From: Gemmatimonadota bacterium
GTDB taxonomy: Bacteria; Latescibacterota; UBA2968
Reading direction: 5' to 3'
Assembly: GCA_009838845.1 (NCBI GenBank)
Contig: VXRD01000079.1
Coordinates: 1 to 34,140 of the forward strand
DNA length: 34,140 bases
Every line of letters begins with the position of its first letter. The stretch's first letter is position 1. A model generated the notes under the pieces. The model was not told where the DNA came from. It worked only from the letters and a program-made list of their open reading frames with translations, and made no database searches. A program made the translations under genes and the position numbers. This document shows, one piece after another, positions 9,330-32,653 of the stretch.

Positions 9330-10337
9330 TCAGGCACAATCGGGATGGCCTTCTTTCCACCGCCCGAAGGGAACATCGGTCTGTCCGTCCTGATTGATTT
9401 TCGACATCGCCTTTCGAGTGTCTGACCACATTTGGGTCCACACTTTTGCATCTCTCAATTCGCGCTCTGGATGTTTGCGGCTGCGCGCGACAAAGCCCGG
9501 AAATGCCTCGCGTCCAGTCGTTTGACCGATGGGATTATACCGCAGATCAAAGCTCCAGCGGATTTTATCGCTTACATTGGGCAGCGATCCGTGTACTGTG
9601 CACTTGGGAAGAAAAATGACATCTCCCCGTTTGACCGGTAGCGGTATCATGCGTTCGGCTTCAAACAGCGATTCGGGTATCTGGCGCCCACCCGCTGTTT
9701 TGGGTCCATTTCCAAAATACGATGGGCAATGTGTCAAAAGCCCGTGTTTGTGGCTGCCGGGTACGACTTTTAGAGGGCCTTGTTCAATACCGACGTCTTC
9801 GAGTGCAAACCACACGGTCAACATATTTGTCTCATCTGCTTCTGGTACAACCACGCCCTGATCTTGATGCCAGATCGTTTCTCCCAAAACCGGATTTCCA
9901 AACTGGTTTTTGGGCAGAATATGCTCGGGTGGTTTAATCCGCACATGTTGTACGGGATTCGAGTATATCTCTGGTCCGATGAGCGATTCCACACAATCGA
10001 GCAGGGATTCAGCTGTAAAGGCATTGAGAACAGCCTGTCCCGCCCAGAAAGGCGTGTCTGGTTTCACATTTTGAAATGGTAGCGAGAAATCGAAATACTG
10101 TTTGTGTACATCGCCCGTTTCAATACAGACCGCGACGAATCGCTCGGCGAAATCAAGGTCTTCGAACAAGGAAGAAATCTCTTCTTGTTCGTAAAGATCG
10201 CGGACTAAGGTGTCGAGTACATCTGTATATTCTTCAATCACAGGATCCAACACGGTTTTTGGATCCAACACGCCCTCCACCACCAGATAGCCTTCTTCTT
10301 CAAACTGTGCGGTCTGCTCGGCAGTTAGGCAACCCAT
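9330..10337 (-). CDS. Phytanoyl-CoA dioxygenase (PhyH) family Fe(II)/2-oxoglutarate oxygenase
   Basis: 335 residues. The double-stranded beta-helix core is recognisable. The iron ligands are H157 and D159 in WHQDQG and a distal H249 in TVHGS, and R260 in the following segment (SDKIRWSFDLRY) is the likely 2-oxoglutarate anchor. The strand VVPGSHKHG (191-199) is typical of the family. It starts TAEQTAQFEEEGYLVV, the standard PhyH N-terminus. Members hydroxylate diverse small molecules, and the phytanoyl name does not define the substrate. It lies directly upstream of a Gfo/Idh/MocA gene, suggesting that hydroxylation and alcohol oxidation may be consecutive steps. All classical active-site residues are present, unlike the duplicated pair further right. 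Confidence 0.9.
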   Translation of the reverse strand: MGCLTAEQTAQFEEEGYLVVEGVLDPKTVLDPVIEEYTDVLDTLVRDLYEQEEISSLFEDLDFAERFVAVCIETGDVHKQYFDFSLPFQNVKPDTPFWAGQAVLNAFTAESLLDCVESLIGPEIYSNPVQHVRIKPPEHILPKNQFGNPVLGETIWHQDQGVVVPEADETNMLTVWFALEDVGIEQGPLKVVPGSHKHGLLTHCPSYFGNGPKTAGGRQIPESLFEAERMIPLPVKRGDVIFLPKCTVHGSLPNVSDKIRWSFDLRYNPIGQTTGREAFPGFVARSRKHPERELRDAKVWTQMWSDTRKAMSKINQDGQTDVPFGRWKEGHPDCA

Positions 10338-26678: not shown

Positions 26679-26707
26679 TCCATAAGTACGACAAAAGCAC
26701 TTGACAA
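26679..26707 (-). promoter_or_regulatory. Candidate creatininase leader promoter
   Basis: On the minus strand, TTGTCA (26702-26707), 17 bases, TATGGA (26679-26684). It would start a leader of about 165 bases that runs through the terminator hairpin before reaching the creatininase gene. It overlaps the start of the repeat shared with 28.8 kb. Confidence 0.4.
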
Positions 26708-27801
26708 CGACTGCCGAAAACGCCTTCTTACCATCCATCCATACGCAAGAAATGGCCCTTGTAGTTCCTACACGTAGAGGAGATTAGAAGATGAACGACG
26801 CGATGCGTGACACGTTCGCACGACAAGGCTATATCGTCGTGCCCGATGTGCTCAATCAACAGCAACTGGACGAGCTCAATCAAGTCTATGATCAGCATAT
26901 CCACGAGCGGGATGAGGCACTGTCCACAGACGGCACCGACAAACAGAACCGTAAGAGCATCCGGGGGCGCAACACACGCCAGACAACGGATCGGCACGGC
27001 AACACCTACGTGGGGAGAAGGTTATGGAGCAAGGCGTATAGGGACCTGATCGACAACGAGATCATGCTGCCCATCCTTGAAGAGCTTCTCGGCGACCCAG
27101 CGTGGGGCCATGCCCCAGCACATATGCCGGCAGAGCTTCGCCCCTTGTTCCGGCTGGATCACGACAATATACATTACAAGCCCGGCCGGAAACCGACAGA
27201 CGGTGAGGACAAAGGCGGGACACTCCACGGCGGCCCTGGCAACTTTCATATCACGTGTGTTTATGAACTCAAGACAGTCGGACCAGATGACGGGGGCTTC
27301 GGGTGTGTTGCTGGCACACACAAGCCGGCCAATGAGCAGAAACTGACGGACATCGACGGCGACTGGCGGCGAAACTGGTGCGACACGAAATGGACGTCGC
27401 AGCTGCCAAACTGGGATGACGATGTGCCGGTGCACCGCGTCGAGGCCAGGGCTGGGGACTGCATTTTGTTCAGTGAGAAGCTCAAACACGGTACGATTCC
27501 GTGGGCAGGGAGCGGCGAACGTCGCACCCTCTTCTACAAGTATGTTCCTTTCGGCATGCACCACGGCGACGCCGCGTACGACACCAACGACCCCGAACTG
27601 ACTGAGCGGCAGAAACGGATTCTGGAGTTCTCGCCGTGCTGGTTTAACGATCCCCGTGAGGACAAAGACTATTCCGCGAACCCTGCGCTTACCAAGCTCC
27701 ATCCTCTGGCGTGTGTGGAGAGCGACCCGAGTGTGTTGCTGCCGGGCATGTCGCCGCCGCACATCCGGCTGACGGACGAGACCAGGGCAATGCTGAGTGC
27801 C
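26682..27801 (+). repeat. Direct repeat copy A (1120 bp, PhyH gene plus upstream region)
   Basis: It matches 28819-29938 at a constant offset of 2137 bases with no gaps. It includes 109 bases upstream of the gene (ATAAGTACGACAAAA onward) and all but the last codons of the PhyH gene. The last 369 bases (27433-27801) are identical to copy B, while earlier parts carry scattered changes. Confidence 0.95.
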
Positions 27802-27807
27802 AACTGA
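26791..27807 (+). CDS. PhyH-family oxygenase, duplicated copy A (HxG in place of HxD)
   Basis: 338 residues. The N-terminus MRDTFARQGYIVVPDVL and the strand DDGGFGCVAGTHKPANEQ (166-183) place it in the PhyH/2-oxoglutarate oxygenase superfamily. The distal histidine is H233 in KLKHGTIPW and the co-substrate arginine is R244 or R245. Where classical enzymes have HxD, this one has TLHGGPGNFH (144-153): H146-x-G148, so the carboxylate ligand seems absent. Fe(II)/2-oxoglutarate halogenases have a similar change (HxG or HxA), but other explanations are possible. GAGGAG is 8 bases before the ATG, and a terminator follows. It is near-identical to the gene at 28928; about 20 residues differ. Confidence 0.87.
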   Translation: MNDAMRDTFARQGYIVVPDVLNQQQLDELNQVYDQHIHERDEALSTDGTDKQNRKSIRGRNTRQTTDRHGNTYVGRRLWSKAYRDLIDNEIMLPILEELLGDPAWGHAPAHMPAELRPLFRLDHDNIHYKPGRKPTDGEDKGGTLHGGPGNFHITCVYELKTVGPDDGGFGCVAGTHKPANEQKLTDIDGDWRRNWCDTKWTSQLPNWDDDVPVHRVEARAGDCILFSEKLKHGTIPWAGSGERRTLFYKYVPFGMHHGDAAYDTNDPELTERQKRILEFSPCWFNDPREDKDYSANPALTKLHPLACVESDPSVLLPGMSPPHIRLTDETRAMLSAN

Positions 27808-27839
27808 AGATTCGAATCTAAAATAAAATGAATATTTTA

Positions 27840-27870
27840 GGCTGTGAGGGACTTCTCACAGCCTTTTTGT
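27840..27870 (+). terminator. Intrinsic terminator after PhyH copy A
   Basis: GGCTGTGAG (27840-27848) pairs with CTCACAGCC (27855-27863) over a 6-base loop and is followed by TTTTTG. Confidence 0.88.
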
Positions 27871-27874
27871 TTCG

Positions 27875-27915
27875 AAACCGTGGGTATTCAATTTGAATGC
27901 CTGCGGTTTTTGGTT
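27875..27915 (+). promoter_or_regulatory. Long hairpin with U-run just upstream of the methyltransferase gene
   Basis: Arms 27875-27891 and 27893-27909 pair along 17 positions around a central T at 27892. Three pairs are G-U on the + strand RNA, so the structure favours the + transcript. TTTTTGGTTT follows. It may be a second terminator or an attenuator; the ribosome binding site begins only a few bases after it. Confidence 0.6.
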
Positions 27916-27931
27916 TAAGGGAGTCTGTAAA

Positions 27932-28822
27932 ATGAATAAGATGCACGAGTCAAATCATACAAAATGGAATGCAGCTGCACCACGGTGGAAGGCACGCAGA
28001 GACTCAAAAGGCCCTTGGCATCGCGGTCATCTGGTACCAGAGCGGGTTGAAAAAGCACTCGAATATTGGAGGGAGAATGCATTGACTGAGCAGGGAGTTG
28101 AGCATATCGCTCAACATCTTGGATCCCTGGAGGGAAAAAACGCGGTTGTCTTGGGCAGTGGGGACAACTTCGCCGCCTTCGCCTTGGCATCAATGGGGGC
28201 AACAGTCACGTCAGTCGACATTTCCGAGCGACAATTGGAAATCGCCGCCGAAAGGGCAAAGGACCTTGGCCTTGAAATCACCTTCCACCAGGGCGACATT
28301 TCGGACCTCCCGACGTTGCCCGACGGAGGATATCACTTCGCGTGTAGCGTAGGCGTTGTGGCCATCTGGATTTCGGATCTCTGGCAATACTACGCAGAGG
28401 CAAGTCGGTTGCTGACCCCAGGTGGACTGTTTGTGGTAGGCGAGGTTCATCCCGTGCGGCAAATGTGGAGCAACTGTGAATACTTTATAGGTGAAGATGC
28501 GATGGTTGGCAAAGAGGGGGGCAACACTCCCGAAGCAGACTTCTTTTACTTCGATCGTGGGCCTCACCAATACTTGTATAACCCGGAGACAGGAGCGGCG
28601 ACAGAATTTGTGGATCCTGAAGACGAAGAGACCAGGGATGCCGAGAATGTTCAGTACATTTTTCAGTGGACTGTTTCTGACTACCTGATGGCGATGATTG
28701 ATGCTGGATTTGAGATCCTTCACGTTTGGGAAGAGCCGACCAAAAATCATGATCAATGGCGTCAGAATTGTTTTCACGCTCTGCCCAACGGATTCTATAT
28801 GGTCTGTAAGAAGAAGCAATAA
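27932..28822 (+). CDS. Class I SAM-dependent methyltransferase
   Basis: 296 residues from the ATG at 27932, 8 bases after AAGGGAG; a longer frame starting at 27893 would begin inside the hairpin. SAM-binding motifs are AVVLGSGDNFAAFALA (71-86, motif I with G-S-G), TSVDISERQLEIA (93-105, acidic end of strand 2), FHQGDISDLP (118-127) and LLTPGGLFVVGE (160-171). The C-terminal third (VEFVDPEDEE-like acidic loop, then IFQWTVSDYLMAMIDAGFEI) is typical of small-molecule methyltransferases. The substrate is unknown. It sits exactly between the two copies of the PhyH repeat, and its TAA stop lies inside the first bases of copy B, so its 3' end marks a duplication boundary. Confidence 0.88.
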   Translation: MNKMHESNHTKWNAAAPRWKARRDSKGPWHRGHLVPERVEKALEYWRENALTEQGVEHIAQHLGSLEGKNAVVLGSGDNFAAFALASMGATVTSVDISERQLEIAAERAKDLGLEITFHQGDISDLPTLPDGGYHFACSVGVVAIWISDLWQYYAEASRLLTPGGLFVVGEVHPVRQMWSNCEYFIGEDAMVGKEGGNTPEADFFYFDRGPHQYLYNPETGAATEFVDPEDEETRDAENVQYIFQWTVSDYLMAMIDAGFEILHVWEEPTKNHDQWRQNCFHALPNGFYMVCKKKQ

Positions 28823-29938
28823 GTACGACAAAAACACTTGACAACGACTGCTGAAAACTCCTTCTTACCAGCCATTCATGCGCAAGAAATGGCCCTTTTA
28901 GTTTCTACACATAGAGGAGATTAGAAGATGGACAATGCGATGCGTGACACGTTCGCACGACAAGGCTATATCGTCGTGCCCAACGTGCTCAATCAACAGC
29001 AGTTAGACGAGCTCAATCAAGTCTATGATCAGCATATCTTTGAGCGGGAGGAGACGCTGTCCACGGCCGGCACCGACAAACAGAACCGCTTCTACATCGG
29101 CGGGCGCGACACCCACGAGACAACTGACCGGCACGGCAACACCTACGTGGGGAGAAGGCTCTGGAGCAAGGCCTACAGGGACCTGATCGACAACGAGACC
29201 ATGCTGCCCATCCTTGAAGAGCTTCTCGGCGACCCGACGTGGGGCCATGCCCCAGCACATATGCCGGCAGAGCTTCGCCCCTTGTTCCGGCTGGATCACG
29301 ACAATATACATTACAAGCCTGGCCGGAAACCGACAGACGGCGAGGACAAAGGCGGGACACTCCACGGCAGCCCGAGCAGCTTTCATATCACGTGTGTGTA
29401 TGAACTCAAGACAGTCGGACCAGATGACGGGGGCTTCGGGTGTGTTGTTGGCACACACAAGCCGGCCAATGAGCAGAAACTGACGGACATCGACGGTGAC
29501 TGGCGGCGAAACTGGTGCGACACGGAGTGGACGTCGCAACTGCCAAACTGGGATGACGATGTGCCGGTACACCGCGTCGAGGCCAGGGCTGGGGACTGCA
29601 TTTTGTTCAGTGAGAAGCTCAAACACGGTACGATTCCGTGGGCAGGGAGCGGCGAACGTCGCACCCTCTTCTACAAGTATGTTCCTTTCGGCATGCACCA
29701 CGGCGACGCCGCGTACGACACCAACGACCCCGAACTGACTGAGCGGCAGAAACGGATTCTGGAGTTCTCGCCGTGCTGGTTTAACGATCCCCGTGAGGAC
29801 AAAGACTATTCCGCGAACCCTGCGCTTACCAAGCTCCATCCTCTGGCGTGTGTGGAGAGCGACCCGAGTGTGTTGCTGCCGGGCATGTCGCCGCCGCACA
29901 TCCGGCTGACGGACGAGACCAGGGCAATGCTGAGTGCC
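28819..29938 (+). repeat. Direct repeat copy B (1120 bp, PhyH gene plus upstream region)
   Basis: Counterpart of 26682-27801. It begins at the stop codon of the methyltransferase gene. Upstream and 5' coding parts differ at many positions, but 29570-29938 is identical to copy A. Confidence 0.95.
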
Positions 29939-29944
29939 GGATAG
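28928..29944 (+). CDS. PhyH-family oxygenase, duplicated copy B (HxS in place of HxD)
   Basis: 338 residues, the same fold and motifs as the gene at 26791, with distal H233 and R244/R245 unchanged. The iron-site loop reads TLHGSPSSFH, so the expected carboxylate position is S148 rather than G148. Changes also cluster at residues 38-63 (for example FEREETLSTAG against HERDEALSTDG, and RFYIGGRDTHE against RKSIRGRNTRQ). From residue 201 to 337 the two proteins are identical. The variable N-terminal segment and the altered loop after H146 suggest different substrate or ligand handling, while recent gene conversion kept the rest uniform. The upstream site GAGGAG-ATTAGAAG-ATG is conserved, and a strong terminator follows. 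Confidence 0.87.
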   Translation: MDNAMRDTFARQGYIVVPNVLNQQQLDELNQVYDQHIFEREETLSTAGTDKQNRFYIGGRDTHETTDRHGNTYVGRRLWSKAYRDLIDNETMLPILEELLGDPTWGHAPAHMPAELRPLFRLDHDNIHYKPGRKPTDGEDKGGTLHGSPSSFHITCVYELKTVGPDDGGFGCVVGTHKPANEQKLTDIDGDWRRNWCDTEWTSQLPNWDDDVPVHRVEARAGDCILFSEKLKHGTIPWAGSGERRTLFYKYVPFGMHHGDAAYDTNDPELTERQKRILEFSPCWFNDPREDKDYSANPALTKLHPLACVESDPSVLLPGMSPPHIRLTDETRAMLSAG

Positions 29945-29977
29945 AACTTTTTGGCCAAATGATAGCGAAAATAGAAA

Positions 29978-30009
29978 AATGCCGTGAGATTTTTTCTCAC
30001 GGCGTTTTT
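29978..30009 (+). terminator. Intrinsic terminator after PhyH copy B
   Basis: GCCGTGAGA (29981-29989) pairs with TCTCACGGC (29995-30003) over a 5-base T loop, followed by GTTTTTC. Its sequence closely resembles the terminator at 33353. Confidence 0.9.
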
Positions 30010-30042
30010 CATTGATTCACCGTAGAGAAAGGAGCTGTGTCG

Positions 30043-31927: not shown

Positions 31928-32653
31928 ATGGGCGTAATGACAGATGAGCAGAAGAAGCACTTTCGCGAAGAAGGATATCTGCTGGCGTCGGGTTTGATCC
32001 CCGAGCATGTGGTTCGCAAGGCTGAAGACGCGATGTGGGCGGCGTTGGAAATGGACCGTGACGACTCTGAAACCTGGGGGCGTGTGTCCGTGCATGCGAT
32101 CAATCAACAGCATCGTGCATCGCCAGAAAATCGAATGATGAGTTCGCCGGATATCCTGGCGTGTTATACAGATGATATTTTGATCGCAGTATCCGAATTG
32201 ACTGGTGTAGATCGCGAGGAGATCCACGCGCCGACACAGGTTATGACTCAGAACACGTTTCCGACGGAAGGTGAATGGAGCCACTTGAAACCTCACCTGG
32301 ATGGTGGATCCGATCCGGTAAAGTACAATCGTCCGACGTTTCCCATTCCAATCCTGGTGCATTCAATTCTGTATCTGAGTGATACAGCACCGCACGGAGG
32401 ATGCACGTTTGGATGGCCTGGTTCACATCAAAAGCTTCAGGGTATTGCAGAGGACAACCCAGAGAAATATCCCTACTTGTGGGACGTGAATTCGGGTAAG
32501 GACACGGTAGATATTGGTGAAGGTGTAGAATTGGTGGCAAAGCGTGGCGACATTCTGTTTTACCAAAACTTTTTTTTGCATGCAGGAAGCAAGAATATAA
32601 ATGACTATCCTCGGCTTGCATGTCGTAATACATGGAAGTGGAATGCTGTATGA
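31928..32653 (+). CDS. PhyH-family Fe(II)/2-oxoglutarate oxygenase (short, HxD type)
   Basis: 241 residues, shorter than the other three PhyH genes but complete. It starts MTDEQKKHFREEGYLLASG, the usual first helix. Iron ligands are H123 and D125 (KPHLDGG) and H218 (FFLHAGSKN), and R229 or R233 is the likely 2-oxoglutarate anchor. The strand CTFGWPGSHQKL (159-170) is typical of the family. It therefore keeps the classical facial triad, in contrast to the duplicated pair 2-5 kb upstream. GGGAG is 7 bases before the ATG. It probably forms an operon with the toroid gene upstream. The substrate is unknown. Confidence 0.9.
   Translation: MGVMTDEQKKHFREEGYLLASGLIPEHVVRKAEDAMWAALEMDRDDSETWGRVSVHAINQQHRASPENRMMSSPDILACYTDDILIAVSELTGVDREEIHAPTQVMTQNTFPTEGEWSHLKPHLDGGSDPVKYNRPTFPIPILVHSILYLSDTAPHGGCTFGWPGSHQKLQGIAEDNPEKYPYLWDVNSGKDTVDIGEGVELVAKRGDILFYQNFFLHAGSKNINDYPRLACRNTWKWNAV

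Follow-up and report, generated by a model that had tools for sequence, protein, structure and literature searches.

A tandem pair of PhyH-family proteins without the HxD aspartate: probable HygX-like oxygenases with a candidate second-shell glutamate rather than halogenases

The window, i.e., the whole stretch of 34,140 nucleotides that was analyzed, contains two closely similar genes of the PhyH family, here termed copies A and B, which are separated by a gene for a SAM-dependent methyltransferase (Table 1). Both copies encode 338 amino acids, of which 21 differ, and both score above the gathering cut-off of Pfam model PF05721 (44.9 and 46.4 bits, respectively, with a cut-off of 22), the model by which the PhyH superfamily is defined. 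No named family was found for either copy in NCBIfam and PHROGs. The methyltransferase is likely translated from ATG 27926 or ATG 27932. The duplicated unit (26700-30036) takes in about 90 bp upstream of the gene. Across the final 40% of the gene, the two copies share 99% identity, which suggests recent gene conversion. Tandem copies were found again in relatives, with the HGS type in several of them; judged by this recurrence, the copy with HGG and the copy with HGS at the HxD site are an old pair. The neighborhood was considered as a clue to the substrate and rejected, as the methyltransferase, creatininase, BNR and oxidoreductase genes lie near the copies in close relatives only. Neighborhood comparison likewise found the methyltransferase gene 27893..28822 in close relatives only, and it is not a conserved partner. 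Sugar-related neighbors and the likeness to HygX described below weakly suggest a sugar-like substrate, weakly because the neighborhood is not conserved.

Table 1. Genes and predicted active-site residues of the duplicated PhyH locus (positions in the window).
Feature	Position	Strand	Evidence
Copy A, PhyH-family Fe(II)/2OG oxygenase, HGG at the HxD site	26791..27807	+	ORF; Pfam PF05721 E 2.2e-11; orthologues 79-93% identical
Copy A H146-G147-G148 (CAC GGC GGC), usual HxD site	27226..27234	+	Profile alignment, MAFFT, sequence reading
Copy A E229, acid at H233−4, candidate carboxylate (second-shell or iron-binding)	27475..27477	+	Invariance; covariation with HxD loss
Copy A H233, predicted distal iron-ligand His	27487..27489	+	Profile alignment, MAFFT
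Copy A R244, predicted 2-oxoglutarate Arg (H233+11)	27520..27522	+	Orthologue and profile alignments
SAM-dependent methyltransferase between copies A and B	27893..28822	+	Pfam Methyltransf_11 E 4e-16; neighborhood comparison
Copy B, PhyH-family oxygenase, HGS at the HxD site	28928..29944	+	ORF; PF05721 E 7.7e-12; 95% nucleotide identity with copy A
Copy B H146-G147-S148 (CAC GGC AGC), usual HxD site	29363..29371	+	Sequence reading; S148 also in L003, L004, L005 and L015 copies
Copy B E229	29612..29614	+	Sequence reading, orthologue alignment
Copy B H233, predicted distal iron-ligand His	29624..29626	+	Sequence alignment
Copy B R244, predicted 2-oxoglutarate Arg	29657..29659	+	Sequence reading

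The HxD...H facial triad of the PhyH superfamily is absent from copies A and B, while the distal His and the 2-oxoglutarate (2OG) Arg are kept; HygX-type members of the superfamily are likewise without the triad. The original prediction had placed TLHG followed by Gly (copy A) or Ser (copy B) where HxD is expected, and this was confirmed by ORF reading, profile alignment and MAFFT. In the genome-wide PhyH profile alignment, LHGG of the paralogues falls on the HxD column; the same profile put both copies of the window slightly out of register (by a few residues), and their placement was corrected by hand. In the MAFFT alignment, HGG and HGS of the window copies themselves lie on the HxD column. 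At residue 148, Gly of copy A (GGC) and Ser of copy B (AGC) differ by a single-base change. The claim that no other HxD precedes the VAGTHK/VVGTHK strand was borne out as well: when the whole proteins were scanned, no H-x-D/E was found upstream of the distal His in copy A or B. The sole H-x-D/E in either copy, H258-G-D260, lies farther downstream, past the 2OG Arg. It was rejected as a displaced HxD motif on account of this position, and it is not expected to act as a ligand because D260 is replaced by Asn in L013 and L015. The other PhyH proteins of the window carry WHQD (9330-10337, minus strand) and PHLD (31928-32653), as had been noticed before, and the contrast between HxD and non-HxD proteins within one locus is real and represents one instance of a large genome-wide split.

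The gene shared by copies A and B is present in 18 of 41 related genomes. Orthologues with 79-93% identity come from contigs that bear the labels Latescibacterota, Poribacteria and Gemmatimonadota. The HxD site of 27 distinct full-length orthologues reads HGG (20), HGS (6) or HGR (1), and E229, H233 and the Arg at +11 are kept in all 26 orthologues that are readable there. In comparison to copy A, dN/dS of the orthologues is about 0.10-0.30. Since the site is common to 27 full-length orthologues under purifying selection, chance or sequencing error was rejected as the cause of the lost Asp, and from these alignments the loss is old and conserved. The one HGR sequence, L016:7117-8136, is a tandem copy with Arg where the carboxylate is missing.

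At least 154 matches to the PhyH family were counted in the genome of 5.75 Mb, and a PhyH expansion of a similarly extreme kind has been reported for Poribacteria (PMC3909097). For a census, the stretches of the listed PhyH matches were gathered, yielding 170 PhyH ORFs that were profile-aligned. In this alignment of the own genome, the first-His column holds His in 146 of 161 sequences, and the third residue of the motif is Asp in 111, Gly in 29 and Ser in 4. HQG of L137 was judged to be a misalignment of WHQD and was discarded. In a tree of 160 domains, the non-HxD proteins group essentially into a single clade with about 35 members; outside it stands one independent case, L111, in which HAG occurs with FNDCCYH, i.e., the lost HxD and an acid are paired again. 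Of 64 genomes of the phylum that were searched with a profile of the class, 46 gave matches at E <= 1e-20, frequently tens of them in a single genome (at most 40 were scored in each), a count that may include other PhyH proteins. The class also has a member with HGG and FTEALIHG in IMG/VR, one sequence on two contigs classed as viral (L198/L199, about 1501-2235); it was the single relevant protein in the viral contigs searched, and it had no match in the phage collection.

Two further arrangements were seen among the PhyH proteins. Fused double-PhyH proteins occur in the own genome (L179, L191 and L135), and similar ones were found at L011:7113-8759 and L016:4109-5740. Their N-terminal domain carries EGG, TGG or VGG with Gln in place of the distal His and is, from its sequence, apparently dead; the C-terminal domain carries HDS, HGS or HDA with an acid at −5. 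In addition, WHSH was read at the HxD site (HxH...H) of L007:4301-5071 and of L215 of a second genome of the same class (G037), where the sequence would allow a 3-His iron site.

The loss of HxD covaries with an acid close to the distal His. In the own-genome census, 36 of 37 non-HxD members carry an acid at −4 or −5 of the distal His, compared to 29 of 106 HxD members. At −4 alone, the counts are 27/37 and 6/106 (Fisher p 2e-15, a statistic that ignores phylogeny), and one clade dominates the signal. In genome G037, an acid at −4 was found in 25 of 31 non-HxD and in 3 of 38 HxD proteins, where shared ancestry is again ignored and part of the sampling relied on a profile that includes the FTEA motif. 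The acid at −4 alone does not define the class because a few HxD proteins carry such an acid too, namely L071 (HAD and FSEALTH) as well as L047 and L049 (NER/TER). L071, encoded in the own genome, lies within the HGG clade and combines the HxD acid with the Glu at −4, which makes it a natural comparison. The option of another ligand in the original prediction stood in spirit, as E229 is conserved through the subfamily, but not for the acids it had proposed to survey, D123 and D125. These are rejected because DHD is missing from the HGG-class paralogues L063 and L066 (RYSNANG, RYGNANG), which retain the acid at −4.

A search with the class profile returned HygX, the hygromycin B oxygenase (PDB 4xc9/4xca/4xcb/4zpi), as the top solved relative (E 1.6e-14). 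With copy A as single query, HygX was matched with an E of 0.56 only, copy A being too divergent for firm single-sequence evidence. A model of AF2 computed from a mixed alignment reached a moderate mean pLDDT of 69.7 and a pTM of 0.75, with about 76-96 in the catalytic blocks; with close orthologues alone, the mean pLDDT was 43.6 and the model was of no use. In a fold search with the AF2 model, HygX ranked third (E 1.9e-10) after two ColD entries. HygX and copies A and B share the PhyH-type fold, GSHK and the distal HGT motif; when they are aligned by fold, about 15% of the residues are identical. At the HxD site HygX reads LYLHGGN, and NEALMHG places a Glu at −4; likewise, A and B combine LHG[G/S] with Glu at −4. 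The strict A/B family differs from HygX in that a loop insert behind LHGG is missing, DHDN is present and the C-terminus is extended. E229 of the AF2 model sits next to H233, in the turn that joins strands 224-228 and 232-236.

A mechanistic parallel is offered by human AspH, which belongs to a different 2OG oxygenase family. AspH carries HXG...H and binds iron by H679 and H725; the vacant iron site is filled by water W1, which is hydrogen-bonded by D721, and activity is much reduced in the D721A variant (PMC13168262; PMC12816917). AspH does not halogenate, and W1 is said to hinder the binding of (pseudo)halides (PMC13168262; PMC12816917). The spacing is the same as in copies A and B, with D721 at H725−4 and E229 at H233−4, and in both cases the 2OG Arg follows downstream. 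Canonical PHYH and EctD share with A and B the Pfam model PF05721, the first His, the distal His and the downstream Arg; unlike A and B, they keep HxD and are without an acid at −4. Ordinary 2OG oxygenases are usually killed by removal of the Asp, as reported for P4H (D414A/G; PMC2767507) and PHYH (D177A/G; PMC12816917). Because Asp-to-Gly exchange inactivates other 2OG oxygenases, copies A and B would need to make up for the missing Asp through the acid at −4 and further second-shell features.

Taken from sequence and analogy, copies A and B are probably (at a probability of roughly 0.6) working HygX-like Fe(II)/2OG oxygenases with a center of two His and a second-shell Glu, and not halogenases. 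The iron would be held by H146, H233 and 2-oxoglutarate, the latter anchored by R244, and residue 148, the third protein position, would contribute no ligand. The vacant position would most likely be filled by water on the carboxylate of E229, like W1 on D721 in AspH. Such an E229-held water would favor O2 activation, followed by hydroxylation or by oxidative cyclization as in HygX, and would disfavor the binding of halide; for this reason, the proteins would not be halogenases. By analogy, we infer metal binding, the role of E229 towards water or as ligand, activity and reaction type, and hydroxylase- or cyclase-type enzymes are most likely.

The original prediction had raised the possibility of halogenases. 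In this reading, residue 148 would leave room for a halide bound to iron, and HxG/A is an accepted flag for these enzymes (PMC12871659), to which HGG of copy A conforms. HGS of copy B does not, and residue 148 varies between Gly, Ser and, in L016, Arg among the orthologues. The same source warns that HXA/G searches yield false positives (PMC12871659), and AspH is an HxG hydroxylase that does not halogenate. SyrB2 and CytC3 (PDB 2fct, 3gja) resemble A and B in the PhyH-type fold and the replaced Asp, which is part of HQA in both halogenases. However, the context of the site is WHQA in SyrB2 and CytC3 versus LHGG in the A/B class, and the non-acidic residue at −4 of the halogenases, Ser in STLMH and SNTMH, is not found in A and B, where both copies carry E229. 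Copies A and B were unlisted for TIGR01762 (chlorinating enzymes) even at E 10, no gene in the genome scored above the cut-off of this model, and no halogenase occurred in the match list of the class profile. With the variable residue 148, the acid at −4 and these searches against it, a halogenase is unlikely and, as far as sequences tell, not supported; a halide bound at residue 148 is given very little weight.

In a relocated facial triad, E229 would bind iron directly, next to H146 and H233, and the carboxylate would come from −4 of the distal His and no longer from +2 of the first His. The invariance of E229, the strong covariation of the acid at −4/−5 with HxD loss, the same LHGG/Glu pair in HygX and the turn beside H233 in the AF2 model would all suit this arrangement, and the abstract of the HygX paper reportedly mentions variation in the metal coordination of HygX. 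The acid of the same spacing in AspH, however, is second-shell and acts via water, and we regard direct binding by E229 as rather doubtful. Equally tentative is its extension to the whole expanded clade, in which HxD would be replaced by an E-x3-H ligand pair in dozens of paralogues per genome. A site of three His completed by H153 is hardly credible: H153 is invariant across the strict orthologues, but HGG-class paralogues without it (the position lies within GLTV) share the Glu at −4. It was also proposed that the proteins may be non-hydroxylating or inactive, i.e., that the fold would be retained for binding or for dimerization (of A with B, or with other PhyH proteins) without catalysis. 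The absence of the canonical carboxylate would agree with such pseudo-oxygenases, as would the fused PhyH proteins of the same genome in which one domain is apparently dead (EGG/TGG/VGG, Gln for the distal His). They are nevertheless improbable, since both His and the 2OG Arg (H233+11) stand in every readable orthologue while the dead domains lose the His, and since purifying selection acts on the A/B orthologues; HygX, with the same motif, is moreover an oxidative cyclase according to the title of a paper cited in PMC8748661. The retained His and Arg and the purifying selection argue for activity.

HxG/A in 2OG oxygenases is widely taken as a halogenase flag. In this genome, HxG/A/S/L/N goes together with an acid at or beside −4 in about 35 PhyH domains, as in the non-halogenases HygX and AspH. 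If this rule holds, many proteins wrongly called halogenases would be weeded out by a check of the residue at −4, and a large set of enzymes would be marked as working without the standard iron carboxylate. With the Gly/Ser near-twins A and B, the natural Arg variant and the HAD relative L071, the question is directly testable.
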